This document shows positions 2,502 to 36,803 of a stretch of 38,034 bases of DNA, piece by piece (the first letter of the stretch is position 1; every line of letters begins with the position of its first letter). The notes below the pieces were generated by a model that did no database searches, was not told the origin of the DNA, and worked only from the letters and a program-made list of their open reading frames with translations. This DNA comes from a virus. A program made the translations under genes and the position numbers. The stretch covers positions 1-38,034 of IMG/VR virus record IMGVR_UViG_3300030101_004730. One strand, given 5' to 3'.

Positions 2502-4334
2502 TTATTCTGTTTCTGGTTCTTCTGTATCGTCAAAATCTGTAATATTAAACCCCCTAATTTCACGTACTGAATTTTGAGCCGTTGCCATTTCAGCAAATGC
2601 AAGTGCTTTATCTTTTATTATTTCTTTTTGCTGGTTATAATCAAGCAATAAAAAGGCTGGTTCATTGGCCACAATATCTTCAGTAATCTCTTTAAAATTC
2701 AACAATAATGCCTTTTGTGGGCTGCTGTCTGGTAACTGTAAAACAATGTTAGCTTTCAGTTCTGGTGTTAAGTTGCTGAACGGTTCAAATTTCCGCATGA
2801 TGTTATAAATTGTCATGTAACTTGAATCTGTTCTGTTTTGTTTTACAACTATTCTTTTGTTGATGTTTTCAATCACCTCTGGACTGGCCCCCGCTTCTTT
2901 TGCAAGCTTTAAAAGTTGTATCAAATATTCCTCACTTTCAAGGTCATATTCATTGGTGTATAAAAGCTTTGTTTCTAGGTCTTGAACCTCTAAACTTTGG
3001 GCCATAATATCAACCGTAAAGGTGAACAACCTTTGAGGTGATTTAGTAAACTCAAACATGGCATCTTGTGCCGTATCATAGTAGTTTTGTATTTGTGTAG
3101 CCGTTGCCATTGCTCCTTGCTGGTGGCTAATATCCACACCAAAAACAGCCTCTGTAATTTTGGGGGTATATTCTTGTACGTCCTCTTTTTGTTGCTTTAC
3201 AATATCAAAAGGTACATCAACATAAAATACAAAATCTTTTGGCGTTATGCTTATATTTTCGCCGTCCTCACTTGGCAGCTGTACTTCAATAACATCTTGG
3301 CTTGATGTATGCACCTTTTTACCAGAACCCGAACAGCTAGGGCATACATGGCCGCTAGGGTGTAAGATACCACCTTGACAAATGCTGTGTGAATCATCTT
3401 GATAATCACAAGGGGTATAATATTGTACCTTTTGCAAGAAAGCATGGAGGGTTAAAGATAGGTCATATTCAGAACCCCTATTTACTAGCTGTTTGTATTC
3501 CTCTGTCGCACTATCCCAGAATGAAACGTATGTTTGTTTATCTGTGTTTTTATCATGCAAATACCCCACCCTAGTAATTGGTAAACGGTCAATTTCTGAT
3601 TGCTCAAAAGTTACAATAAAAGTCTTTTCATTTACAGTTTCAACATCACCAAAAAAGAACCCCTCATCATCAGTAAATTGCTTGTAAAATTCTGAATATT
3701 GTTGTACATCATCATCAAGTTCAATGGCCATTTCAAGCCCCTCAGAATTAAAATAATAATATACACAAATATTTTTATGATAGGTGGCCCCATCTTTTTG
3801 ATAGCTTACAACCTCAATCAGCTTGCAACAACATTGAACAACCTTACCTTTGTAAATCTTATAGTCTAAAACATCATGAGCCCTAAATATAAAAGGGTTG
3901 AAAGTGTCAACCTCATTAATGCGCTCATGTTGCACCCAGTAAAATGAATTTGGGTCTATGTTGTTATAATATAAAGCGGATTCCTCACACCAATGCAATA
4001 AGCTTTGGCCATCATCACCATAATTCGCCGTAAATTGCCCTATTTTTTGACTTTCTTGTTCATCTTGGTGTGATATATCAAAAGCCAATTTATCTGCCCT
4101 AAAAACCCGTTTAAAAAAGCCTTCTATTTTCCCAGCTATTGACTTAGTTCTATTCTGGGTAATTTCAACCCGCTGCATTTTCTGTTGGTCTGTTTCTCTG
4201 GGCTTGTAGTTAACTATCAATTCACCGTACCCCTCACCCGTCACAATTTGGCTGTAAAAGTGCGCTAGTTCACACGTATAATCATAATGCTTGTGAGTAT
4301 ACCCCTCAATACATTTTTCTAAATTCTGATTCAT
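2502..4334 (-). CDS. Portal protein with an inserted zinc-ribbon-like Cys cluster
   Basis: A 610-residue protein in the portal position, after terminase and before MuF. It has the acidic N-terminus and long central helices with a Gln-rich stretch (VDISHQQGAMATATQIQN) seen in SPP1-gp6-like portals, followed by a long helical C-terminal region. It would form the dodecameric DNA channel to which terminase docks. Odd feature: residues 309-334 contain C309, C319, C331 and C334, the last two in CPSCSGSGKK, resembling half of a DnaJ-type zinc motif. This suggests a metal-bound insert in the clip or wing region. The ATG at 4334 is the first good start; a small gap separates it from the upstream basic-protein gene. 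Confidence 0.85.
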   Translation of the reverse strand: MNQNLEKCIEGYTHKHYDYTCELAHFYSQIVTGEGYGELIVNYKPRETDQQKMQRVEITQNRTKSIAGKIEGFFKRVFRADKLAFDISHQDEQESQKIGQFTANYGDDGQSLLHWCEESALYYNNIDPNSFYWVQHERINEVDTFNPFIFRAHDVLDYKIYKGKVVQCCCKLIEVVSYQKDGATYHKNICVYYYFNSEGLEMAIELDDDVQQYSEFYKQFTDDEGFFFGDVETVNEKTFIVTFEQSEIDRLPITRVGYLHDKNTDKQTYVSFWDSATEEYKQLVNRGSEYDLSLTLHAFLQKVQYYTPCDYQDDSHSICQGGILHPSGHVCPSCSGSGKKVHTSSQDVIEVQLPSEDGENISITPKDFVFYVDVPFDIVKQQKEDVQEYTPKITEAVFGVDISHQQGAMATATQIQNYYDTAQDAMFEFTKSPQRLFTFTVDIMAQSLEVQDLETKLLYTNEYDLESEEYLIQLLKLAKEAGASPEVIENINKRIVVKQNRTDSSYMTIYNIMRKFEPFSNLTPELKANIVLQLPDSSPQKALLLNFKEITEDIVANEPAFLLLDYNQQKEIIKDKALAFAEMATAQNSVREIRGFNITDFDDTEEPETE

Positions 4335-5300: not shown

Positions 5301-6884
5301 TTACTTTTTAATTTTTGCCAAATACCCTACACTTTTAGGGTGACATAAAAAATATTCAAATGCTTGTAACATATGCCCTCTAGGCTCATGTCCATCTTTG
5401 TTTTTAGGCTTGGCCAATTTACCGTTTGCATCTTGTGTGCATTCTTGCAAATCTTGTATCAATTCATCACATTTGGGGTCAATCAATATTCGTACTGGAT
5501 AATTACCCTCTAAAAGTTCATTCAAAAAAACCCGTCTACCAAGCATCCCAGCCCCTATACTTCTGTACTGGGGGTTTCTGTTTGGGATTCTCTTTTGAAC
5601 ATTGGCTTTGGCTGCTATACTCAAACCGCTTAATAAATCTGAAAATAACGTTTTTGTTTTGGTGGTGTTTGCAGTTGTACTGATACCAGTATTATTGTTT
5701 CCGCTTGCATCACCATACAAGAAAAAGCCCGTTTCAATTTGTGGGTATTTTGCTTCAAAGAATTTGCCCAATGCTTGAGCCGAATTATTGGGGCTAGATA
5801 AGGCAAATTGATGAATTATTGATATTTCCCAGTATTCTGAATAATTTTTCCAGAAACCGTCCTTAATGTATTCCATCTGTATTGCAAGCCCAGACATATA
5901 AGGTGACGTATTAAAGTCCACCGTATAATGTAAAGGTACAAAATTTTTGTAACTTATTTCTTTAACTATACGTCCATATTTGAAACCCGTTGCATACTGG
6001 GTTGATTTATTTGGTTTGGGGTCACCTTGATATAGGGCATTGAATGTTCTAGGATTAGCCCTAGCAATATTCATTATTTTTTCTTTTGAGTGCTGCTCTG
6101 GCCATAATGCTTGACCGTATGCTCTAGGGTCGTTTATATCTGTTGTATTTTGCTTGATAGCCTCCAACCTTAGTACTTGCCACCCATCGGGCATTTTGTT
6201 TAAAATTTGGCCGCATAAATCATTCTTGTGCCATCTGGTCATGGTAATTAATTGCTGGCTGTCATTGTGCAAACGTGTTAAAAGTACATTTGTGTACCAT
6301 TCCCATTTTCTTGCTTGGTCTGTCAAGCTGTTACCCTCAATAGCATCCTTTACGGGGTCATCAATTATGGCTATATCAACCGTTGTACCAGTCAATGAAC
6401 CACCAACCCCAACCGACTTATAAAAGCCCCTAAAATTGACCGTTTCAAACATATCAGAATTTCTAAGATAAGAACCGCTTATTGTTTTGACATTGGTTGA
6501 ATTTAGCTTGGTATCTGGAAATACTTCTTTATATTCTTTTTCATCAATGATTCTTTGTACATCACGGTTGAAAGACTTGGCAAGGTCTGAGGAATAAGAA
6601 CACCCCACAATTTTAAGTTTTGGGTTTTTTCCTAAAAGATAAGCTGGTAGCCGCCTTGATGTCAATTCTGATTTGCCGTGCTGGGGCGGCATGAATACCA
6701 TTAGCTTTTTAATCTCACCAGCTGCAAATTTTTGCAAGTGCTGGGCCAACAATTCATGATGCCAGTTTGTTTGATAGTCTGGCTTTGTGTGGGTCACAAA
6801 GTTAATGAATTTACGCCTCGCCCTCTCCGCTTGTATCTGGTTGAATGATGGCAGATAATTTGGCAAATTGTTCAAGTTGTTCAT
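5301..6884 (-). CDS. terL: Terminase large subunit
   Basis: A 527-residue packaging motor. Walker A is MPPQHGKSE (about residues 65-73), Walker B is VDIAIIDDP (169-177), and TMTRW follows as the coupling motif. The C-terminal RNase H-like nuclease domain shows HYTVDFNTSPY and FFLYGDASGNNN, supplying the expected acidic residues. It cuts and pumps phage DNA through the portal. The ATG at 6884 lies inside the terS gene (74-bp overlap); no later in-frame ATG precedes Walker A, so this start is kept. Length and order (terS-terL-portal) are normal. Confidence 0.95.
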   Translation of the reverse strand: MNNLNNLPNYLPSFNQIQAERARRKFINFVTHTKPDYQTNWHHELLAQHLQKFAAGEIKKLMVFMPPQHGKSELTSRRLPAYLLGKNPKLKIVGCSYSSDLAKSFNRDVQRIIDEKEYKEVFPDTKLNSTNVKTISGSYLRNSDMFETVNFRGFYKSVGVGGSLTGTTVDIAIIDDPVKDAIEGNSLTDQARKWEWYTNVLLTRLHNDSQQLITMTRWHKNDLCGQILNKMPDGWQVLRLEAIKQNTTDINDPRAYGQALWPEQHSKEKIMNIARANPRTFNALYQGDPKPNKSTQYATGFKYGRIVKEISYKNFVPLHYTVDFNTSPYMSGLAIQMEYIKDGFWKNYSEYWEISIIHQFALSSPNNSAQALGKFFEAKYPQIETGFFLYGDASGNNNTGISTTANTTKTKTLFSDLLSGLSIAAKANVQKRIPNRNPQYRSIGAGMLGRRVFLNELLEGNYPVRILIDPKCDELIQDLQECTQDANGKLAKPKNKDGHEPRGHMLQAFEYFLCHPKSVGYLAKIKK

Positions 6885-16836: not shown

Positions 16837-17274
16837 TTATAAAAATTTTTTTAAGGTTTCCAGTTCTTTTTCAATTTCTTGCAAATATACAAGTTCATTT
16901 GGCTGGGGTAAGTACAGCCCATTATCAGCTGAATAATTACGAAACCTATCAATTGCGGTGGTCATTTCGGCTGTGCTCAAATCGGCTGAACTCCTTATAT
17001 CTGTATAGCTGGTGCCATCTTTGGGGTTGGTGCGCTCCACAAAAAATAAATCTTTGTTACATACCTTTTTAAAGAACCTTAGCTTTACATATGCCAGCGA
17101 ATACCCAAAGGATGCACCAAACCAGCCCAGCAACAAATGTAAATAGTTATTCTGGCTCAAACTCCTTTTTGTTATGTTTCTAAGTTCAACAAACTTAGCA
17201 GATTTTATAAGGCTTTCAGAATACCTTTTAAACTTGTCAACATCAAGGGGGCTGGATAGGTTATATTTTGCCAT
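16837..17274 (-). CDS. NinB-like recombination protein
   Basis: A 145-residue protein. RSLSQNNYLHLLLGWFG (about 38-54) and RSSADLSTAEMTTAIDRF with YSADNGLYLPQPNE (about 92-127) follow the layout of NinB/Orf-type proteins: R-(S/T)LxQN near the start and a Ser-rich strand before a final helix and Pro-rich end. NinB proteins assist recombination on single-stranded DNA, which fits its neighbours (Gp157-like, ERF, RuvC-like). The C-terminus is a short Glu/Lys helix. Assignment rests on motif reading. Confidence 0.55.
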   Translation of the reverse strand: MAKYNLSSPLDVDKFKRYSESLIKSAKFVELRNITKRSLSQNNYLHLLLGWFGASFGYSLAYVKLRFFKKVCNKDLFFVERTNPKDGTSYTDIRSSADLSTAEMTTAIDRFRNYSADNGLYLPQPNELVYLQEIEKELETLKKFL

Positions 17275-20125: not shown

Positions 20126-22624
20126 TTACAATAAATCAAATAAAGTAGGTACATTAATTTTATATTCAATAGCCTTTAAATAATACAAGCCATCATCATA
20201 ATAATCTGGGTTAAGTTCAACACTTGTACAATTTCTATTCATTTCAAGTGCCTTATAAGCAGTTGAAAAAAGCCCCCCAAATGGGTCACAAATTAAGTCG
20301 CCTTTCATTGTATATCTATTTATCAACCTTTCTATAATATCCAATTGTAAAGGGCAAATGTGCTTTTGTTTTTTTCTATTTGATTGATTTGTGTTTAAAG
20401 TATTCATTCTATTTATATCTGTCCAAACTAAATCATTATTTGAATGTTGAGGCAACGTCATAAATAAACTTGACAATTTACCTTGAGCTTCCAGAATTTC
20501 ACAAACATTTAAATGCTCTTTAAAAGAATAAACCTCTTTTGTATTATGCTTTTTCCAGTAATTGCAAATTGATTTAACATCTCTTTGTTTCATTTCTTTA
20601 CTGGATAAAAATCTATTTCCATCAGACTTCCAATAAGCATGAGCATCTAACTGCCAATTTGCCCTTGTATATTCTTGTTTTGTTTTTTTGCATGGCTGGT
20701 CAGCATAAGCATTATTATTTTCAGTTGGGGCCTTTCTAAAAAGCAAAATATATTCTGGTAAACCAACACCCATTTTTGTTGCATCTTTGCATTGTTCAGA
20801 CCAGCCTAATCTGTAAGTTTGATTATTTTCTCTTACAACATCTGTTGTTACTGTAATTTTACCAATTAGATAAAAACCATGTTTTAAAAAATGCTGTACA
20901 GTTTTACCGCTGAAATCGTCAATTGTAGTAAAAGAAGTGCCGTTTTGATATGAATATCTAATCCTATCTTTTACATGAATAGCAGCTATTTTACCAGCTT
21001 TCAAACATCTTAATAAATTAGGCGTTAAATAGTCCATTTGTTTAAAGAAATTATCATTGCCATGATTGTGGCCCATGTCATTATAATTATCTGAATACTC
21101 ATAATGGTCACCAAATGGAATAGAAGTCAATATCATATCATAAATATTACTTTTTTGTTCTTGGTGAAATGTGACAGTATCTTCATTGTAAACATTTGCG
21201 CCACCTATTTTTGCACTTCTTCTATTATTAAACATTTGCCTTTTCATATCACTTCTAACTTTATCTTTATTTAAACCGTATTCTCTAACTAAATTTATCA
21301 TTTCTGTTTGTAATTCAATATGCTTTCGCCATTTCTCTTTTAATGCTTTTAAAACGTGTCTTTCGTTTTGTGTAAATATAATATGCACATTGACTTCTTT
21401 ATCTTGTTTAAATCTATAACAGCGGTGCACAGCTTGTATGAAATCATTGAATTTATAATCAATGCCAACAAATATCATATTATTGCAATTGTGCTGAAAA
21501 TTACATCCGCTGCCAGCTATCTTTGGTTTTGTTGATAGTATTTGATATTCACCACGTTTAAAGCTTATTAAAAGGCTTTCTTTTTCTGTGTTTTTTTGTG
21601 AACCAAAAACAGATTTAATACAAAATTTTTCTTTGAATGCCTTATTTATAGCTTGTCTTTCAGCTTCCAGATGATGCCACAAAATAAAATTATCATCACT
21701 TTGACAATTTACAATATCTAAAGCTTTTTTAACTCTCAAATCTATTGTACTACTTTTTTCTCTGGCTGTATCAATCAAGCTTTTTGAATTGTCTTTAAAT
21801 AGAACAATATCACCTTTTTTATTTGTTATAATTCCCTTTTCAATGTGTTGCACTTCATGTTCAATTAAGTTCAATTTAGGCAAGATATACCCATCATCAT
21901 TATAGCCTAAGTCAGATGGTTTATTTATAAATACAGCCCATGTGCTAACCCATTTCCAAAACTCCTCTTTTTTGTTTGGGTATAGGGTTAAATTACCAGC
22001 TTTTGTACTATCTCTTTGAAAAAATCTTGTAAGTGCATGGCCCCTATCAATTACACCTAAATAGTCAGCATAATTTAAAATCTCTATAAAATCATTTGGA
22101 GTTGGGGTTGCTGTTGCAACAAAACGATAATTTATATTTGAAAAATATTTTAACACAAAGTTAGTTGTTTGAGTTTTAAGATTTCTTATCATTGATGCTT
22201 CATCAAATGAAACGCCACCAAACTTATCTGGCCTCACATCACCTTTCCTTATTCTTTCATAGTTAGTGCAATATATTGTATTTGTGTATTCTGTAACTGT
22301 GTCAGAATCGGTTATATATTTGATGCTCATTTTTGAATCTAAAAATTTTAAATCATCTTTAAACTCACCAATAACGCCCAGCGGCATACAAACCAAAAAC
22401 GGTTTATTTGTTATTTCAATTATCTTTCTTGCAATTTCCAATTGCATCATTGTTTTACCAAGTCCAAAGCTGGCAAAAATAGCCCTACGGCCACCAGATA
22501 TACACCATTTTACAATATCCTTTTGATGAGGTAAAAGATTTGAATCTATATTTGACTTCAAATCATCTGTGCCATAATCTTTTGCAATTACAACTTTGCT
22601 TTCTAAAAATTTTTTGTACTCCAT
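20126..22624 (-). CDS. SNF2-type helicase fused to a beta-class amino-methyltransferase
   Basis: An 832-residue two-part enzyme. Residues 30-460 are a superfamily 2 helicase: Walker A SFGLGKTM (52-59), motif II FDEAS (140-144), motif III TATP (171-174), and motifs V/VI AGSGCNFQ (370-377) and QAVHRCYRF (397-405). Residues about 495-832 are an N4/N6 DNA methyltransferase with motif IV first (LTSIPFG, 499-505) and motif I last (LICDPFGGLFST, 777-788), i.e. beta order; VELNPDYY follows. Motif IV has SIPF where SPPY/W is usual. Such a fusion could methylate phage DNA processively as antirestriction, as proposed for P1 DarB, or act in replication. It is second gene after P5, behind hairpin module R1. 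Confidence 0.85.
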   Translation of the reverse strand: MEYKKFLESKVVIAKDYGTDDLKSNIDSNLLPHQKDIVKWCISGGRRAIFASFGLGKTMMQLEIARKIIEITNKPFLVCMPLGVIGEFKDDLKFLDSKMSIKYITDSDTVTEYTNTIYCTNYERIRKGDVRPDKFGGVSFDEASMIRNLKTQTTNFVLKYFSNINYRFVATATPTPNDFIEILNYADYLGVIDRGHALTRFFQRDSTKAGNLTLYPNKKEEFWKWVSTWAVFINKPSDLGYNDDGYILPKLNLIEHEVQHIEKGIITNKKGDIVLFKDNSKSLIDTAREKSSTIDLRVKKALDIVNCQSDDNFILWHHLEAERQAINKAFKEKFCIKSVFGSQKNTEKESLLISFKRGEYQILSTKPKIAGSGCNFQHNCNNMIFVGIDYKFNDFIQAVHRCYRFKQDKEVNVHIIFTQNERHVLKALKEKWRKHIELQTEMINLVREYGLNKDKVRSDMKRQMFNNRRSAKIGGANVYNEDTVTFHQEQKSNIYDMILTSIPFGDHYEYSDNYNDMGHNHGNDNFFKQMDYLTPNLLRCLKAGKIAAIHVKDRIRYSYQNGTSFTTIDDFSGKTVQHFLKHGFYLIGKITVTTDVVRENNQTYRLGWSEQCKDATKMGVGLPEYILLFRKAPTENNNAYADQPCKKTKQEYTRANWQLDAHAYWKSDGNRFLSSKEMKQRDVKSICNYWKKHNTKEVYSFKEHLNVCEILEAQGKLSSLFMTLPQHSNNDLVWTDINRMNTLNTNQSNRKKQKHICPLQLDIIERLINRYTMKGDLICDPFGGLFSTAYKALEMNRNCTSVELNPDYYDDGLYYLKAIEYKINVPTLFDLL

Positions 22625-27807: not shown

Positions 27808-28392
27808 TTATGGTAGAGGATTTGGCACCTTATCTGGTGCTGTTTGTCCTTTCCAAGTAATTACAAAAGTCCATTTTTCAATACTTTCCTCGCCTCTATC
27901 TAGTACGGGGCTCAACCTCATTTGTGTAGGTATGATGCCGCCATCTTTGCCGTACAAATAACCGCCAACAGTACTGAATATAAATTTAGGTTTTACCTTG
28001 CTACATTCTAACTTTCTAAGATAATCATAGGTATCACTTCCAAACTCAAATAAATCAAAGTTCAAAGTCCAAGTTGCTGCAATGTCTACAGTATTAAAAT
28101 TGTTGACCGTTACGCTTTGAAATTCTGGGGCTGGTGCATCACCAATACCAAAAATTTGTTTAAGTTTTAAATCTGTTGAATCTGTATTATCAATATCAAA
28201 ATCAGATGCAGCCATATTTGGCCCCCAGTTTGACGGGGGTACTCCCAATGTAGGGTGCCAAAAAATAATAGAATTTACCTCACTTTGTGTAACACTATTA
28301 CAATTCTGGTTTTGTGCATTCATAGCACCTAGTGCGCCATCTGGACACACTAAGGCTGAACAATCAACCGAAAATAAATTTATTGCACTCAT
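27808..28392 (-). CDS. Probable major tail (tube) protein
   Basis: A 194-residue protein. The second half is beta-rich with alternating hydrophobic residues (FQSVTVNNFNTVDIAATWTL, then EESIEKWTFVITWKG), consistent with a tail-tube fold, and the size is normal for major tail proteins. The N-terminus is Cys/Asn-rich. It follows the 380-residue protein and precedes the large tail-tip protein. Assigned from size and position; not from a clear motif. Confidence 0.5.
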   Translation of the reverse strand: MSAINLFSVDCSALVCPDGALGAMNAQNQNCNSVTQSEVNSIIFWHPTLGVPPSNWGPNMAASDFDIDNTDSTDLKLKQIFGIGDAPAPEFQSVTVNNFNTVDIAATWTLNFDLFEFGSDTYDYLRKLECSKVKPKFIFSTVGGYLYGKDGGIIPTQMRLSPVLDRGEESIEKWTFVITWKGQTAPDKVPNPLP

Positions 28393-28408
28393 TTTTTATA
28401 GTTTTTTT

Positions 28409-29551
28409 TTATACTAAAATTTGTCCTTTTACCATCCTTTTATCGTTACCACATACCAAACAATCTGTCACATCCGCTGGCATATAATAAACCAGATTTT
28501 TAATAGCCATTCTATATATTTTTATAAAATGGTTTTGTATGCTGTACAACTGTTTAGGGTCAAGCACCATTGTATAATGATTGATTCGCCCAGACATTAA
28601 AATACTAGCAGCAAGATTAAAGATTGCTTTTGCTTGTATTCCATCAGCTAGGGCCATCCCCAGCGACAACCGCTGGCCACCAATTAAGGTTGCATCATTT
28701 GGCTTTTGTGCTAAATCACACAACCAGCTGTAATAATCACATTCCATTGATGCGTTCAAAACAAGGCCGTTCATTGTTGCACTTCCATATCGGTTTGCAT
28801 TCAAATTTTCAACCGTATCAGATTGCACACCACCAGCACAAAGAATCTGCAAAAATGGATTTTCACGGTACTTTGTACGGCTGTTACATTGACAACCTTT
28901 TTCAATATTGTTCTTTACTGGCCTAGCCCCAACGGGTATTGTATAAGCTATGTATAAACGTTCGTTTAAATCATCTCTTATATCACCTAGTTCAATAATT
29001 ACTGGGCTTGAAAATGTAGCCGTAAAATACTGCTTATTTGCTGTAACATTGGCCGTTGCTGTTGCTATTGGCGTACTTAAATTTAAGCTTGAATATATTG
29101 ATATATCAACGCTTGTAGGCGCTGCTATCCCATCCCAAAAAGCAATATCTATACTATCAAATCTTAGCTTTGCACCCCTTATATTATAAGGCTCTAACCA
29201 GACACCAGCAACCGCATCATGAACGGTTTCGGCTTGCTTATTGTAGCTGTCACCAATTTTTGTAAATGGTAAAAATTGTTCTTGTTTTACTCGTTTTGTT
29301 TCGGCTAGGTAATCGGTCAATAAATCCCTTACAGCCTTATTTCTAGCTTGCAAGATTAATTCCCAAATACCACCATTTTCACAGTCCGCCGCACTATTAG
29401 TCCAACGAATAGGAATTGTATCTGGCTGGGATACATACAAACCACTTGTGCTTTGATTTAAAGCATTGAAATCAGTTGGCTTGGATGAATCCCAGCAGTT
29501 ACAACTTGAGGCCGAAAGGCCAACGATATTGTCTAAACAATTTAAAGACAT
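28409..29551 (-). CDS. Cys-rich virion protein downstream of the capsid gene
   Basis: A 380-residue protein with many cysteines (LNCLDNIVGLSASSCNCW at the N-terminus; KGCQCNSRTKY and DCLVCGN later). The middle contains a beta-sandwich-like insert (VDISIYSSLNLSTPIATATA); the last 120 residues are helical. Four bases separate it from the capsid stop, so it is probably made in similar amounts to virion proteins. I do not recognise the family; head-completion, decoration or tail roles are all possible. Confidence 0.6.
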   Translation of the reverse strand: MSLNCLDNIVGLSASSCNCWDSSKPTDFNALNQSTSGLYVSQPDTIPIRWTNSAADCENGGIWELILQARNKAVRDLLTDYLAETKRVKQEQFLPFTKIGDSYNKQAETVHDAVAGVWLEPYNIRGAKLRFDSIDIAFWDGIAAPTSVDISIYSSLNLSTPIATATANVTANKQYFTATFSSPVIIELGDIRDDLNERLYIAYTIPVGARPVKNNIEKGCQCNSRTKYRENPFLQILCAGGVQSDTVENLNANRYGSATMNGLVLNASMECDYYSWLCDLAQKPNDATLIGGQRLSLGMALADGIQAKAIFNLAASILMSGRINHYTMVLDPKQLYSIQNHFIKIYRMAIKNLVYYMPADVTDCLVCGNDKRMVKGQILV

Positions 29552-29554
29552 TTA

Positions 29555-30682
29555 TTAAGCTTTATCAACTCTAATGATACCAGTATTGTCACCAACCGCT
29601 GGTACTAAATCGAATAAACCAACAAGGTCAAGTTCCCAAACATGGTCAAGACTTGGCTTACCGTATTTGCTTGCAGTTGAATTACAGCTTTTTTGGTATC
29701 TTACGTCAATCATTACATCTTGCATGACACCATTATTGGCAAACTGTAAAATACTTACATTGCTTGAACCATCTTGGTACATATCGTAGTATGAAAGAGG
29801 TAGTGAAAATTGAACAGTATTGTTTTTATCACCTACTTCCTCACCTTCTTCTGGGTATTGGCTATAAAAGTATGATACTAATGCGTTAGGGTCTACTAAA
29901 TAGATAACATCCGCTCCAATAATACCGTCCAAATTATCTTCATCAAAGAAAATATCTCTTTTTTGAAATGTCAAAGCGTAAGACCGTTCATTGTCATTTA
30001 CTGCATGGTCTTGAGCAATTGAAAATGGTACTCTTAATGCTTTTCCAGAAACAATATAATAGTTGTTAGGTAGGCCTTTTACCCTTGCTAATTGGTCAAG
30101 GATTGACAGCGTATCAGCGGCGCCCTCACCTTTCCAGAATGCAGCACCAGTTATAGTGTAATTACCCGCTACAACAGTAACATCATCGGGTAAATTTGTA
30201 GCACTAGCAACAGATTTATTGGCTTCTAAGCTATTGATAACAGTTGTATTAAAAGCTTGTACCATCAAGGTCATTTTGTGTGCTAATAAAAAGGCTGTTC
30301 TATCAGCAAATTTGCTGAAATTATCACAATCTTTATCATTAAGAGCAATAGACGGTTTTTCAAAAATATTAAAGTCATAATCTTGACTAGCCGTACTCAT
30401 GCCATCGCCAGTTGTTAGGTCACATTCTCCAGCAATTGGAGTTGCTGAAACGGTTGGTAAGCTTGTTACATCTGCTACATTATACCATACTTTTACACCC
30501 GTACACAATTCACCAGCACCAGCCAACAAAGGTTCAATTGTTGCTGTTTGTTTCATCAATACTGCTGGGGCTGCAACTGGTACAGCTGTTAATTCTGGGT
30601 TAACTGTTGCCTTACTAGCAAATACCGTATCTAGTTTTGTTCTTAAAATCGGAATTACTGAGGCTGTGAAATTATTTGCCAT
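29555..30682 (-). CDS. Major capsid protein
   Basis: A 375-residue protein directly after a scaffold-like gene. It begins MANNFTASVIPILRTKLD, has an N-terminal helical arm, a spine-helix region (DNFSKFADRTAFLLAHKMTL), a beta-rich core (TFQKRDIFFDEDNLDGIIGA, ADVIYLVDPNALVSYF) and ends in a small beta domain, compatible with the HK97 fold. Length is normal for this class. No protease gene was found, so head maturation may rely on the scaffold leaving uncut. It lies downstream of the tape measure, an unusual place. Confidence 0.8.
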   Translation of the reverse strand: MANNFTASVIPILRTKLDTVFASKATVNPELTAVPVAAPAVLMKQTATIEPLLAGAGELCTGVKVWYNVADVTSLPTVSATPIAGECDLTTGDGMSTASQDYDFNIFEKPSIALNDKDCDNFSKFADRTAFLLAHKMTLMVQAFNTTVINSLEANKSVASATNLPDDVTVVAGNYTITGAAFWKGEGAADTLSILDQLARVKGLPNNYYIVSGKALRVPFSIAQDHAVNDNERSYALTFQKRDIFFDEDNLDGIIGADVIYLVDPNALVSYFYSQYPEEGEEVGDKNNTVQFSLPLSYYDMYQDGSSNVSILQFANNGVMQDVMIDVRYQKSCNSTASKYGKPSLDHVWELDLVGLFDLVPAVGDNTGIIRVDKA

Positions 30683-30693
30683 TGTTTAAAATT

Positions 30694-31617
30694 TTACTTG
30701 TTAGAGTTTTCAAAATTAGCAATCATTTGTTCTTGAATAAAATTGGCCTCGTCTTTATTGCCAGCTTTATTCGCTCGGTTGAAATCATCATAAGTAAACT
30801 TTGAAATTTGAGTTTTTGAATACCCAAAATTGTTTGATACTTGGTTGCTTTCGTTCTTTGGAACAAACGTTGTTTTATTTTCTTTTTTTACTTGTTCAGT
30901 AACAAAATCAACGGGCGAAAGACTAGCAATATAATCTCCAAAATTCCAATGGTTAGCAGTTTCTTTATTATACAATGGGCTTTCTCCATCATCGTCTAAA
31001 ATAACCAATGAACCATCTTGGTTTCTTTTGAATTTTATGTTGCTTAACTCATTTTCTAGGGCTTGTAATTGTAGCTTTTTAATCTTTGGATTTTCGCTAA
31101 ATTTGGCACCCCTTGAGGTTAGTTCGTTTAATGCATCGGCTTTTATTTCTTGCAAAGTTTTAAAGCGGCTAAATTCAGTCTTTATTGTTTCTGCTTGGTC
31201 AGCTTTGCTTTGTAATTGCTCAATATAGTTTCGTACCTCTTCTGAGTTTAATGCTTGTTGAATTGTTATCTTTGATTTGTCAGATTTTGTGGCTTTATTA
31301 TTCATGTTGTTTTTATGCTCCATAAATAAATCTTCAAGCCGCTTACCAGTAATATCTTCTTGAAATACATCAGCCCAAAGGCGTTCAGTTTTTTTGCTAG
31401 CTTGGCGGTATCCTTTGTTTAAAGATTCCTCACGTAACTTGTTTAGGTGTTTGACTGCAAAAGGCTTCAAAAAGCTTGATAAATTTTCAACTTCTGTTAA
31501 ATCATTATCCTCAATTTTATTAATTAAGTCCTCTGGCTGGGTGCCAATTAATGATGCGGTCAAATTAATAACCTCCTTTACAGAAAAAGTTTTTTCTGTG
31601 TTTGCTGAATTTTCCAT
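30694..31617 (-). CDS. Capsid scaffold protein
   Basis: A 307-residue, highly charged helical protein 11 bp upstream of the capsid gene. The middle (about 120-195) is a coiled coil (RNYIEQLQSKADQAETIKTE) and the C-terminus has basic and aromatic residues (KTQISKFTYDDFNRANKAG) suited to capsid contact. Composition, size and position are those of scaffolding proteins. Confidence 0.75.
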   Translation of the reverse strand: MENSANTEKTFSVKEVINLTASLIGTQPEDLINKIEDNDLTEVENLSSFLKPFAVKHLNKLREESLNKGYRQASKKTERLWADVFQEDITGKRLEDLFMEHKNNMNNKATKSDKSKITIQQALNSEEVRNYIEQLQSKADQAETIKTEFSRFKTLQEIKADALNELTSRGAKFSENPKIKKLQLQALENELSNIKFKRNQDGSLVILDDDGESPLYNKETANHWNFGDYIASLSPVDFVTEQVKKENKTTFVPKNESNQVSNNFGYSKTQISKFTYDDFNRANKAGNKDEANFIQEQMIANFENSNK

Positions 31618-31652
31618 AAATATACGCTAAAATTTTAATATTTGTTTACTTA

Positions 31653-31874
31653 TTAATCGTTTTCTTTTTTTTCTGTTTCCTCAATCACCATGTTTGGTGT
31701 TGGTTCTGGTGGGGCTTTTAGCTTGAACTCATAAGCATTAGGGTACATCTTTTCAATCTTATTTTTTGCCTCCAATGTGCATTCATTCCACTTTTGATGC
31801 TGCGATATCTTTTGAAATTCTGGTAAGAGCCTATACAAAAATTCTTTTTCTGATTGCTTTTTTTTCTTAGCCAT
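31653..31874 (-). CDS. Small charged protein of unknown function
   Basis: A 73-residue Lys/Glu-rich protein (MAKKKKQSEKEFLYRLLPEF, then ECTLEAKNKIEKMYPNAYEF) with a Pro-rich acidic tail. It overlaps the preceding gene by 8 bp and comes before the scaffold gene. No recognised family. Confidence 0.6.
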   Translation of the reverse strand: MAKKKKQSEKEFLYRLLPEFQKISQHQKWNECTLEAKNKIEKMYPNAYEFKLKAPPEPTPNMVIEETEKKEND

Positions 31875-32448
31875 TTGATATTGATTTAAGGTAAGGTTTT
31901 AAAATTGTTTGAGTAACTTTCAAGTGTTTAGCCAGTTCTTTAATATCCATGTCACCAGCCAAAAACAATTCTTTTGCCATTTCCTTTTGCTTGGCTGTTA
32001 AATCTTTTTTCTTAGCAACCTTTTTAGGTTTTGATACTGGCTTTGGTGCTGCCATGCTAGGGGTTGGTACTGGCTCACTAAATCTTTGTAATAACCAGCT
32101 TAATTCATTTTCAATAAAATTGCCATCAATGTACTCAAACTTCTTGGCTTTGGCTTTCATGATACCCTTTAAAAACTCGGCACCCTCTGGGCTGGTGGCG
32201 GTATGTCTGGCAATATCATATTCAGCAACCGTTTTGGCAGTAATAACATACTTAATATCATTGATATCAATAATCTGTTTATCAATAAAACCACCATTCG
32301 CAGCCATTCTACTTGTTCGCTTTTGGGCACAATCTCTATACCCTAGCTGTTGGGGGAAATTTGTGATTTCAATAACCTCTAAATCTGATTTAGAAAGTTT
32401 GCTTTTGTCTAATGTCCATTTCTTAATGTCCTTGCTAATTTTGTGCAT
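31867..32448 (-). CDS. Protein with C-terminal helix-turn-helix, between tape measure and scaffold
   Basis: A 193-residue protein. Residues 1-125 form an unrecognised domain; a Pro/Lys linker (PKPVSKPKKVAKKKD) leads to a C-terminal HTH-like segment (MDIKELAKHLKVTQTILKPY, about 168-187). A DNA-binding tail inside a virion gene cluster is unusual; it may regulate late genes or act in head assembly. Confidence 0.6.
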   Translation of the reverse strand: MHKISKDIKKWTLDKSKLSKSDLEVIEITNFPQQLGYRDCAQKRTSRMAANGGFIDKQIIDINDIKYVITAKTVAEYDIARHTATSPEGAEFLKGIMKAKAKKFEYIDGNFIENELSWLLQRFSEPVPTPSMAAPKPVSKPKKVAKKKDLTAKQKEMAKELFLAGDMDIKELAKHLKVTQTILKPYLKSISNG

Positions 32449-32476: not shown

Positions 32477-34921
32477 TTACTTTTTAATTTTCTTAATTTC
32501 CTTTTTGAACTTGCCACGTTCAATCAAATATTTATCATCACCCAGAGGAAAAACAATTGGTGTGCTTTCGGTAGCTTTCAATATACCTTTTAATATTGAA
32601 TTTTGCCCATTTAAAGCATTTTGTATTCCTCGTTCATAAGATAGCAACACTTGTTCTTTTTGTTGCCTTATTTGGTTGTTTATGCGGCTTGATATTTTTT
32701 TGTTCTTGCGGCCTATTGTCTGGGCTGTTGGTATGTCGCTGTAATGTTCACCCATAACACCGTCAAAATCTGCCATTGATTTGTTTCTCAATCCAAGTCT
32801 TTGTGTGGTTTCTTTATCAACAACAAATTCACCCTTGTGTACTATTCCAGCGGGTTCATACTTGCCACCATCACCAGTATATGCACCGTCACCAGTATAA
32901 CCACCATCAGCGAAACCAACAGCCGCCGCCGCTTGTGCTTTTGCCCCAATAAATGAGGCCAACAAAACACCACTTAAAGCCGTTGCCAAACCAACTCCAA
33001 TACCCAAAGGTAATTTGCTTAATGATAGATAAAGGTTTGCTATACTTGTAACCAATGCAGATGCTTGCAAGGCTGTATCAATTGCAAATTGTGCTTGTGC
33101 TGCTTTTTTCCTTTCGCTTTCTGCTTTGTCACGTTCAGTTTTTTCAAGTTCCAAACGTTCTTGCAAGTTACGAATATTAGATGCTTTGCCAAGTTTGTTC
33201 AATTCAATTTCATTAGCCAAGTCAGCTTGTATTTCACTTATCCTTTCATTCCTAAAATCAACCTCTTTTTCTAGTGCTGCTATTCTATCGGCCACCCCTT
33301 TTTGAATCAATGATACTGATTCGTTTATTGTTTGCTTAAGTGCATCATTTGCCTTTTTAGATTCTTCTTCATTAAGCCCTAAAAGCCCGCCAAAACCTTT
33401 GCCCTTTTTCTTAACATCTTTTGATGTTTCCTCAGCTTGCTGAACAACCACAACACCCAGACCAGCCAACCTTTCTTTAAGCAGTTTTATTTCAGCATCA
33501 ATTGCATTTTTTCTTTCCTTTGATATTTGCTTGTCAAAATTCTTAATGATTTCTAGCTTTTTAATTTGAAAATTTAATTCGTTTTGTTCACGTTCTAAAT
33601 TTTGTTCTTTTTCAAATTCTGTAATAGCCTCCTCACTTTGTTTTTTCTGGGCAAATATCTGTCTTTGGTTTTCTAATTCCAATTCAATTTCAGCGGTTTT
33701 CAAACGTTGTTTTGACTCTAAAAATTCTAATTCGCTTTCAAGCCTTTCTTGTGCCCGTTCAGAAAATATGGCCTCGCTTGCTAACTTTTCAGCATCGGCA
33801 AATTGCTTTCTTAATGCTGTTTTATCCTCTTCAAGCACCTTTTGTGATTCTAGTACAAAAGCATTTATTTTTTCAGTTGCAATTTTCTTTTCTCCAAACT
33901 CAATTTTGGTGGCTATCTTAAATCTTTTTTCTCTTTTTTCAGCTGCCCTATCTAAATCTGTTAATTGTTTTTGTAGTTCATTACGTATTAAAGAATCTGT
34001 TAATTTTTGGGCTTCAGCAGCGGCTTTTTCTATTAACAACAATTTATCTTGTTCAATTTTTAAAGCCTTTGCAGCCTCAGCAGATTCATTTTCTAATATT
34101 TTTTTTATTTTTTCTCTTTCTGATTTTATTTGTAATTGAACATTTTTCAATTTTACCTCATCTGATAATTCGCTTGCCTTTGATTCTTTTGATTGCTTGT
34201 TAATTTTTAGAATTTCCTCTTCTGTTTTTTTTATGTTGAATAATTGTCCAACTTTTTTAATTTGTTCATTATTATTAATGTTATCAAATACATTTTGAAT
34301 GTCTTTAGTTTCTTTTATTTTATTCTCTAATTCAAGTTCTTTTTCTTTTAATATTTCAATATTTTTTAAAGCTTTTTCTCGGTCACTAAGTCCGCTTAAA
34401 TCTATTTGTTGTTTTCTTAATTCTAATTCAGATTCTTTAATATCTTGATTTAAATCTTTAATGTTTTTATTTAAATCTTTAATGTTTTTTTCCTCGTCTT
34501 TGGCAGCCTTACCAAACATATTAATTGCTATTGATGCCGCCCCCGCTGCAATGGCAAAAGGGCCAAAAGGCGTACCCGCTAACATGGCACCCAAACTACC
34601 CAGACGGCCAGCCGTTCTAAATGATGCACCGCCAAACCTACCAAGCGCAGAAACACCACGTCCAGCACCCCTTGTGAAACGGCCAAAACTTCTAGTGCCT
34701 TTTTTTGTTTCAGCATCTAAGCCCTTGACACCTTTTGTGGCTTGTGCTGTTGAATCTGTAAAACCATCAACAACGCTACCATCTAATGAATCAGAAATAT
34801 TACTTGATACGTCACCAATAACACTATCAAGCCCCTCAGCTTGATTAGAAATGTTGTTTAAGCTGGCAACCAATTCTGAATCATCAGCGGTTATTCTTAC
34901 AACTATATTTTCATCGGCCAT
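32477..34921 (-). CDS. Tape measure protein
   Basis: An 814-residue protein. The N-terminus (about 75-145) has a Gly/Arg-rich and hydrophobic stretch (SALGRFGGASFRTAGRLGSL); residues about 150-560 are long coiled coil with a 7-residue tandem repeat; a membrane-active segment follows (GIGVGLATALSGVLLASFIG), then the tape-measure hallmark FADGGYTGDG...PAGIVHKGEFVVDKE (670-704). It sets tail length (by the usual 0.15 nm per residue, about 120 nm) and enters the host envelope. It starts in an 11-bp overlap with the chaperone frameshift product. Confidence 0.92.
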   Translation of the reverse strand: MADENIVVRITADDSELVASLNNISNQAEGLDSVIGDVSSNISDSLDGSVVDGFTDSTAQATKGVKGLDAETKKGTRSFGRFTRGAGRGVSALGRFGGASFRTAGRLGSLGAMLAGTPFGPFAIAAGAASIAINMFGKAAKDEEKNIKDLNKNIKDLNQDIKESELELRKQQIDLSGLSDREKALKNIEILKEKELELENKIKETKDIQNVFDNINNNEQIKKVGQLFNIKKTEEEILKINKQSKESKASELSDEVKLKNVQLQIKSEREKIKKILENESAEAAKALKIEQDKLLLIEKAAAEAQKLTDSLIRNELQKQLTDLDRAAEKREKRFKIATKIEFGEKKIATEKINAFVLESQKVLEEDKTALRKQFADAEKLASEAIFSERAQERLESELEFLESKQRLKTAEIELELENQRQIFAQKKQSEEAITEFEKEQNLEREQNELNFQIKKLEIIKNFDKQISKERKNAIDAEIKLLKERLAGLGVVVVQQAEETSKDVKKKGKGFGGLLGLNEEESKKANDALKQTINESVSLIQKGVADRIAALEKEVDFRNERISEIQADLANEIELNKLGKASNIRNLQERLELEKTERDKAESERKKAAQAQFAIDTALQASALVTSIANLYLSLSKLPLGIGVGLATALSGVLLASFIGAKAQAAAAVGFADGGYTGDGAYTGDGGKYEPAGIVHKGEFVVDKETTQRLGLRNKSMADFDGVMGEHYSDIPTAQTIGRKNKKISSRINNQIRQQKEQVLLSYERGIQNALNGQNSILKGILKATESTPIVFPLGDDKYLIERGKFKKEIKKIKK
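34448..34489 (-). repeat. 21-bp tandem repeat in the tape measure gene
   Basis: Two exact 21-bp copies (34448-34468, 34469-34489) encode the heptad KNIKDLN twice. The unit equals one heptad, so slippage here would lengthen or shorten the coiled coil, and hence the tail, in frame. Confidence 0.85.
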
Positions 34922-35210
34922 TTTGTTCTTTTAATTTTTTTTCCAGCCGCTTTAAGATTCTGTAAAAATCAACGGCATAAATCTTTTTCAAATATTCTGG
35001 ATGATAATTTGTATTGTTTACAATTATATCAAAACTGTTGAATGTTGATTGCTCATTTAATATCAAATTATCTTTATATGCTAACCCCTTACGGGTCATT
35101 TTAACTCTTATATATCTGTGTTGCTCTGGCACCTTTTTACGGCCAATAAATGTACCTAGTTTTGTTCCAAAATCTTTTGAGATTCTTGCGAGGCGGCCAG
35201 AGCTAAACCG
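34911..35210 (-). CDS. gpT-like extension of the tape-measure chaperone, reached by -1 frameshift
   Basis: This segment has no plausible start of its own: only a GTG at 35132, inside a longer open frame. The frame is open from just after a TGA at 35217-35219 and begins at the T_TTT_TTC heptamer in the upstream gene. A -1 slip gives 99 residues after residue 167, including ISKDFGTKLGTFIGRKK and VPEQHRYIRVKMTRK, for a total of 266. This copies the gpG/gpGT pair of lambda (140 and 279 residues), where the fusion recruits tail-tube protein to the tape measure. It overlaps the tape measure start by 11 bp. Confidence 0.8.
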   Translation of the reverse strand, partial: RFSSGRLARISKDFGTKLGTFIGRKKVPEQHRYIRVKMTRKGLAYKDNLILNEQSTFNSFDIIVNNTNYHPEYLKKIYAVDFYRILKRLEKKLKEQNGR

Positions 35211-35710
35211 AAAAAATCAACGGCTTTTAAATTCTCCTTGCACCAGTCATCAATCTTAGCATTCGCCAAATCAAAATTCCATGTATTCAAGTCCTCACCC
35301 TCTTTAATTATAAACAGACTACAAATGTAATAAGCTGCTGGGTAACGGCTTGTTAATTCGCCCTTAAAAGAATCTAAATTATTCATGCAATCACGTAGCA
35401 AATTATCCATATTTTTTTGCCAGTCCTCGCCCGTTGCTTGCATCAACCTTATCACAGTATTCCAAGTTTTTACAAACCTTGATTTGATGGCTGTTGGCGT
35501 TTGGTTCAATGCAAAGGCTGTTTCAATGTTATGGTATGCAACTTGTCTATCTATATTAAAAACTTTATCCGCTGGCATCACAAAATACTTTGTGCCATTG
35601 GCTGTAAATTCATCCAAAAACTTTCCATCTTGAATAAGGCTTTTAGGTTGATTGATAGCCCCTATCTTTTTAAGGGTGATTTCAAAATTGTCTTTTACTT
35701 GGTCATTCAT
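35156..35710 (-). CDS. gpG-like tape-measure chaperone
   Basis: A 184-residue acidic, helical protein just upstream of the tape measure, in the normal position of lambda gpG. It contains WNTVIRLMQATGEDWQKNM and an acidic helix-rich C-terminus. Codon 165 onward (GAT TTT TTC) holds the slippery heptamer; most ribosomes would go on to the stop at 35156 (ending LEQN), a minority would shift to make the longer fusion. Confidence 0.78.
   Translation of the reverse strand: MNDQVKDNFEITLKKIGAINQPKSLIQDGKFLDEFTANGTKYFVMPADKVFNIDRQVAYHNIETAFALNQTPTAIKSRFVKTWNTVIRLMQATGEDWQKNMDNLLRDCMNNLDSFKGELTSRYPAAYYICSLFIIKEGEDLNTWNFDLANAKIDDWCKENLKAVDFFGLALAASQESQKILEQN
35210..35216 (-). other. Slippery heptamer for programmed -1 frameshift
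   Basis: Minus strand T_TTT_TTC, positioned in the zero frame as GAT-TTT-TTC. A TGA stop in the -1 frame overlaps its 5' edge (35217-35219), so the -1 frame is open exactly from here on, as expected for a selected site. Confidence 0.82.
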
Positions 35711-35734: not shown

Positions 35735-36037
35735 TTATTTATACGGTATTGTTATAAGCTTGTTAATTATTCCAACAAGTATCATGGTATATAAAGGTAC
35801 TACAAAAACATAAAAGATTGCATCATCGCCAAATGTTTTGTGGCTGTATATGGTTGCACCAATAGATACCCATCCAGCGACACAAAAAGAGCAATTTAAG
35901 AGCCTTTCTAGTAAACGAGGGTAATAACTAGGTAACCAGTCTAAAAAGCCATAATTTGCCGTAAATTTTTCAACATACAACCAGCCAAAACAAGCGGAGG
36001 TAAAACAAATTTTTAATATCATCAAAGTAACTTCCAT
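35735..36037 (-). CDS. Small multi-span membrane protein
   Basis: A 100-residue protein with about three hydrophobic segments: near 4-20 (LMILKICFTSACFGWLYV), 47-63 (LNCSFCVAGWVSIGATI) and 74-92 (FYVFVVPLYTMILVGIINK). No recognised family. It sits between tail-completion genes and the tape-measure chaperones, not with lysis genes. It could be a holin or a membrane-associated assembly protein. Confidence 0.65.
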   Translation of the reverse strand: MEVTLMILKICFTSACFGWLYVEKFTANYGFLDWLPSYYPRLLERLLNCSFCVAGWVSIGATIYSHKTFGDDAIFYVFVVPLYTMILVGIINKLITIPYK

Positions 36038-36149: not shown

Positions 36150-36803
36150 CTAAGGTATTTCATTGACACAATCAGCAGCGGGTAAAATTGGAAATGTACC
36201 ACCCTTGTCTAGGCATTGTTCTAATGTAAATTGAACATCTATTGCAAAAAAATCAAAGGGGTACAAATAAAAGTTTTTAAGCTTGTTATAATCGTACTTG
36301 CCAAAGACCGTGTTTATTTCTTGGTTGACCATTCTTAGGGGCTGTATTCTTAGTTGTGCGCCCTCAAAAATGCCGCTCGTAATCTTACCCCTCATAGTAA
36401 TTTCTTTTTCAAGAATAGGTATAATATTTACAGCATCTGTACAGTTTTCAATACCTAGCTTTGCAAGGTTCAACCATACCACCAAACGGGCTGTACCTCT
36501 AAATCTTTTTTCAAAAAAATTTCTGGTGCTAGTGTACCCTACATTTGACATTGGTTGTATCATCTCCCAGTAAATAATTGATTTTTTTGAATCGTCTGGC
36601 ACTAGGTTTTGATAGATACCAATATTGGCACAATCGGCACCCGTAACATTGCAAGCAACTGGGTATCTTTTTACAATGCCCGTTTCAGTACCGTTACCCT
36701 CTGCAATGTTTATTGTTCGTACTATACCAGCATATCTATCAACAAAATCAAGTACAGATATTTTGGGTGTTAATATGGTATCAATTAAATATTTTATTTT
36801 CAT
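36150..36803 (-). CDS. Probable tail completion protein
   Basis: A 217-residue mixed alpha/beta protein (KRFRGTARLVVWLNLAKLGI, FFAIDVQFTLEQC) with an ATGA overlap to the upstream gene. Position after a gp10-like gene and before the tape-measure chaperones is that of tail-terminator or tail-tube proteins. No decisive motif. Confidence 0.55.
   Translation of the reverse strand: MKIKYLIDTILTPKISVLDFVDRYAGIVRTINIAEGNGTETGIVKRYPVACNVTGADCANIGIYQNLVPDDSKKSIIYWEMIQPMSNVGYTSTRNFFEKRFRGTARLVVWLNLAKLGIENCTDAVNIIPILEKEITMRGKITSGIFEGAQLRIQPLRMVNQEINTVFGKYDYNKLKNFYLYPFDFFAIDVQFTLEQCLDKGGTFPILPAADCVNEIP

Follow-up and report, generated by a model that had tools for sequence, protein, structure and literature searches.

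A probable programmed -1 frameshift in the gene preceding the tape measure of a putative Bacteroidota phage, and a possible mirror-image site in a single-frame family

Introduction

The gene located directly upstream of the tape measure gene in a 38-kb virus record (IMG/VR record IMGVR_UViG_3300030101_004730, positions 1 to 38,034; this entire stretch of 38,034 nt is termed the window) contains a potentially slippery heptamer, which raises the question of whether the gene encodes a single protein or two products of different length. Frameshifting of the lambda G/GT type is well known (PMC5009743; PMC10885494), and a tail-assembly frameshift is described as conserved in long-tailed phages (Xu, Hendrix and Duda 2004, as cited in PMC5009743 and PMC10885494). 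The data presented below indicate, with high confidence, that the window gene encodes a tail assembly chaperone expressed via programmed -1 ribosomal frameshifting. The layout, its conservation, the coding nature of the -1 frame, the missing start codon of this frame in one relative and synteny are read from the sequences, while the occurrence and efficiency of the shift, the help provided by a downstream stem and the chaperone function are inferred.

Results

Slippery site and reading frames of the window

The zero-frame, gpG-like product comprises 184 residues and extends from ATG 35710 to the TAG at 35158-35156 (35156-35710, minus strand). The codons GAT TTT TTC GGT of this frame place the heptamer T_TTT_TTC (35210-35216, minus strand) in the X_XXY_YYZ phase; assignment of the site is based on the in-phase heptamers of related loci and on synonymous constraint, as described below. 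The -1 frame is closed by a TGA located directly 5' of the heptamer (35217-35219, minus strand) and then remains open for 101 codons, forming a gpT-like extension (34911-35216 including the stop, minus strand) that terminates at a TGA at 34913-34911, such that its end overlaps the tape measure ATG at 34921. Joined to the zero-frame part, the -1 frame generates a fusion of 266 residues. The position and phase of the heptamer in the gene upstream of the tape measure, the TGA that shuts the -1 frame, the opening down to 34911 and the two product lengths had all been proposed in the initial annotation, and each was reproduced from the reading frames.

Heptamers were surveyed in ATG-initiated open reading frames of at least 80 aa on the minus strand of the window. 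Among 169 in-phase X_XXY_YYZ heptamers, the site at 35216-35210 displays the longest -1 extension past its own stop, at 82 codons, the next longest being 51, and, of the 16 in-phase T6N sites, it is the sole one to run past its stop. At least 98 open codons were obtained in 5 of 20,000 dinucleotide shuffles. The decisive argument that the layout exceeds chance is its recurrence in every relative that retains the junction. Two further in-phase heptamers were recorded on the minus strand, at 16852 (A_AAA_AAA) and 13536 (A_AAA_AAC), with -1 frames running 51 and 36 codons, respectively, past the stop of the open reading frame.

The gene that follows encodes a tape measure protein of 814 aa (32477-34921, minus strand), identified by its match to phrog_24 (E 1.6e-16) and to other tape measure families. 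The heptamer is thus placed just ahead of the tape measure, as in the tail-assembly frameshift of long-tailed phages. On the other side, a small DUF1360-like protein is encoded upstream of the chaperone gene (35735-36037, minus strand; phrog_781, E 2.7e-4). Its Pfam DUF1360 match lies below the family cutoff, its pairwise BLASTP comparison with gp55 of Parabacteroides phage PDS1 gave an E value of 4e-7, and it contains a conserved C-x-x-C motif. The DUF1360-like gene immediately precedes the chaperone gene in L006, L007, L009, L010, L011 and the cultured phage PDS1. Elsewhere in the record, proteins of 307 and 375 aa encoded downstream of the tape measure (27808-32448), with no family matches, look like scaffold and capsid proteins by appearance only. 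With the portal gene (2502-4334) and the terminase gene (5301-6884) at the opposite end, this order would be unusual if the capsid guess holds. At 20126-22624, an 832-aa protein combines a DNA helicase with a DNA methyltransferase, as judged from PHROG matches.

Conservation of the heptamer and of the -1 frame

Related loci were retrieved via the neighbouring gene at 36150-36803, followed by a chaperone profile and by the -1 product. Used as direct queries, neither the window protein nor the tape measure recovered relatives in viral contigs; the window protein recovered none in phage records, and scans of cellular genomes identified none. Sixteen related loci, originating from different metagenomes, contain the junction (L013, L014, L015, L017, L018, L019, L021, L022, L024, L026-L030, L032 and L035). 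L023 and L025 are near-identical to L022 and were grouped with it, the -1 frame of L024 is cut by the contig end, and L016 is cut before the site.

An in-phase slippery heptamer occupies the same place in all 16 loci, over zero-frame identities of about 18-74%. T_TTT_TTC within a run of six T is present in the window, L013, L026, L027 and L032, while the other T-type relatives display the heptamer (T_TTT_TTC or T_TTT_TTT) inside a longer T run, reaching 8-10 T in several. One sublineage (L022, L025, L029) contains A_AAA_AAA within a run of 10 A. The initial annotation had named loss of the heptamer in relatives that keep both frames as evidence against a programmed shift; retention was instead observed in every relative with the junction, including these distant members in which the encoded residues have changed. 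All 14 T-run members have T as the last base of the codon preceding the run and TTT as the first Phe codon, compared with 32% T-ending codons (for Asp, Ala and Gly) and 73% TTT for Phe elsewhere in the same genes. Counted from the heptamer, the -1 frame of all complete relatives is 91-111 codons long, and its end coincides with the start of the tape measure gene or slightly overlaps it; the order of chaperone gene and tape measure is the same.

Products of the -1 frame are 37-78% identical among close relatives, with L013 and L032 sharing 78%. Those of the window and L013 display 47% identity over 98 residues (E 5e-29), and the portion beyond the zero-frame stop, taken by itself, is again 47% identical (E 6e-22). 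Beyond this stop, the differences between L013 and L032 at the three codon positions of the -1 frame number 10/8/26, and those between L022 and L025 number 1/0/7, falling mostly on third positions. Within the dual-coded overlap of L013 and L032 the differences are evenly distributed (3/3/3). As judged from these comparisons, the -1 frame is coding.

Predicted stem and proposed expression of the gene

A stem beginning 6 nt past the heptamer is predicted by RNAfold, with 5' arm GCTCTGGC (35196-35203, minus strand) and 3' arm GCCAGAGC (35123-35130, minus strand), for which covariation is thin. When the best uninterrupted stem beginning 4-9 nt past the heptamer was compared with shuffled sequences, p values of 0.002 for the window and 0.016 for L026 were obtained, and the stems of L013 and L032 were each matched by 0 of 500 shuffles. 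These four strong-stem members all possess the T6C site. In members with longer runs the test gave weaker values (0.03 to 0.87), and the stem is weak or absent in several. The same stem was recovered by RNAalifold from a five-sequence alignment, its register sliding by 2 nt in L013 and L032. A claim of strict covariation was rejected: base pairs altered on both sides numbered two in the eight-pair version and one in that of RNAalifold, counts that also occur among shuffled sequences. On the basis of these predictions the stem is a likely, though unproven, stimulator. We hypothesize, from 16 sequences, that a short run combined with a strong stem and a long run combined with a weak stem represent two configurations of the site.

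Under the mechanism proposed here, most ribosomes would read GAT TTT TTC through to TAG 35158, producing the 184-residue short form, while a minority would slip back by one base on T_TTT_TTC and, translating in the -1 frame as far as 34911, produce the 266-residue long form; the slip would probably be aided by the predicted stem 6 nt downstream. By analogy with lambda, many copies of the short form would coat the tape measure protein and a few copies of the long form would recruit the tail tube protein.

Chaperone identity and remote homologues

Searches of both parts against Pfam, PHROGs and PDB sequences revealed no significant match, and PDB profile matches to de novo helical bundles and spectrin were judged compositional. 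AlphaFold models of the two parts are of modest confidence (pLDDT of 73 and 68), and no Foldseek match of these models reached E 0.001; the weak viral fold matches included a few tail assembly chaperones, which were discounted as evidence.

Cultured Bacteroidota phages encode, just before the tape measure, an uninterrupted protein of ~250 aa (phrog_8914; 77 records match), which in PDS1 sits behind the DUF1360-like gene. This protein is annotated as a tail assembly chaperone in TCUEAP2 and FpV9, and as structural or hypothetical in others. A profile built from the virtual 0/-1 fusions of the window family aligned colinearly with the phrog_8914 family; the 212 aligned columns span both frames, and the similarity is remote (hhalign score of 46.2, probability of 85% and 11% identity), the best of 40 decoys scoring 17.6. 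The window gene, without a match to phrog_8914 and split between two frames, is a remote relative of the family and not a member. Chaperone identity rests on synteny and on remote colinear similarity to a single-frame protein. This similarity, together with the PDS1 match of the DUF1360-like gene, supports the assignment as a chaperone and also the view that the fusion is real. The gpG/gpGT-like pair of the initial annotation is supported as an analogy with respect to position, layout and likely function, but not as sequence homology with lambda gpG. Because of the PDS1 and phrog_8914 matches, together with part of the tape measure matches, the host group is probably Bacteroidota; terminase matches are mixed.

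Alternative explanations

The downstream frame could be a separate gene with an internal start, and the window does contain a GTG at residue 29 of the -1 frame (GTG 35132, which the initial annotation had put forward as a possible independent start) and an ATG at residue 40. The GTG is not conserved as a start, and the 98 codons of the L013 -1 frame contain no ATG, GTG or TTG, for which reasons independent initiation of the -1 frame is unlikely on comparative grounds. Start codons are also missing from the matching place in L032, L015 and L035, similarity between -1 products begins upstream of the GTG, and the single-frame homologues hold both parts in one chain; we thus accord a separate gene only a very slight chance. 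The same homologues might suggest that a frameshift mutation, an assembly error or gene decay has split what was one frame. This has next to no probability, as the split is at an identical position in 16 relatives of different metagenomes and both parts are under purifying selection.

It could also be slippage of the RNA polymerase on the homopolymer run, and not of the ribosome, that joins the frames. Runs of 8-10 T or 10 A are present in several relatives, and runs of 9 A or T slip during bacterial transcription (PMC5009743). However, the window, L013, L026, L027 and L032 contain only 6 T, below the reported slipping lengths, and in the window, L013, L026 and L032 a strong stem is placed as for ribosomal frameshifting. 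Transcriptional slippage consequently retains a small chance, and slippage at the T6C site of the window is more likely to be ribosomal.

A conserved A run in the single-frame family

Single-frame genes of the phrog_8914 family were examined in 91 cases (80 IMG/VR loci and 11 phage records; L037:1205-1972, L051:1492-2241, L039:1816-2565 and 88 further in L038, L045-L050 and L052-L132). In all 91, an invariant Lys-Lys-Lys at about codon 132 is encoded by AAA AAA AAA, as part of an A run that is 10 nt long in all but three genes (9 or 11 A). The Lys codons at the run are AAA in 273 of 273 instances, against 962 AAA and 766 AAG elsewhere (84 genes), and the other conserved Lys columns of the family are 33-88% AAA; the naive probability of this bias, calculated with one representative per 70%-identity cluster and ignoring kinship, is ~10^-29. 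Both alternative frames stop almost immediately after the run, at medians of 2 and 0 codons compared with 10 elsewhere, such that a short form of ~136 aa would result from slippage. The loci were fetched with two search patterns, one of which contained KKK at the protein level (back-translated). Fetching probably does not explain the run, because the same A run is present in the named phages retrieved by tblastn and in seven loci that fall outside that pattern, having A, S or T in front of KKK. The codon usage and frame closure suggest that the run is likely a programmed slippage site giving a short form. Slippage at the A-run sites may be transcriptional, given that stretches of 9 A or T undergo slippage when transcribed in bacteria (PMC5009743).

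These observations lean towards the view that long-tailed phages of Bacteroidota possess two mirror-image forms of the chaperone gene, with slip sites that nearly match. The window lineage would produce the short form by default and the long form by slippage, while phrog_8914 genes would produce the long form by default and the short form by slippage, and a small frame change beside the run would exchange one default for the other. The C-A10-T site is shared by L022, L025 and L029, in which the short frame is the default; in the alignment their site falls no more than two columns from that of the single-frame genes, and the window's T-run site is ~8 residues upstream.

In Croceibacter phage P2559S (L036:1247-2012), the single-frame chaperone gene is divided between two frames at a run of eight A. 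This break, which may reflect either a homopolymer sequencing error or a natural variant with the short form as default, was left out as evidence. In P2559S, TCUEAP2 and BF503P4 a script also called slip sites at the ends of genes preceding the chaperone; these were rejected because a shift there only leads back into the following gene.

Discussion

For the window itself, the proposed frameshift would be of a known kind; the wider mirror-image pattern holds more interest and lends itself better to testing. The best-known phage frameshift would be extended here to a family without chaperone annotation. Gene callers will truncate chaperone genes of the window type, with loss of the long form. 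Whether both chaperone lengths are always needed could be tested directly in cultured phages, FpV9 and B40-8 among them, because their plain single-frame genes keep a strictly conserved, slippage-prone A run. Searches of the open-access literature, with subscription journals mostly outside this scope, identified no paper joining tail assembly chaperones with Bacteroides phages or Flavobacterium, and none with a title or abstract addressing slippage of this type in Bacteroidota phages; the novelty of such slippage is provisional.

Compared with lambda gpG/gpGT, the window family lacks sequence similarity detectable by family searches, uses a T-run (or A-run) heptamer followed by a predicted downstream stem, and would belong to phages of Bacteroidota. 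The phrog_8914 protein resembles the window fusion in its location between a DUF1360-like gene and the tape measure and in its remote colinear similarity, but differs from the window gene in having one uninterrupted frame, the long form as default and a conserved run of 10 A. A further parallel, restricted to the phrog_8914 family, is the programmed slippage of dnaX (tau/gamma): the family would likewise make the long form by default, with the short form expected via homopolymer slippage. dnaX is nevertheless unrelated in gene and function, and the arrangement of the window is the reverse.
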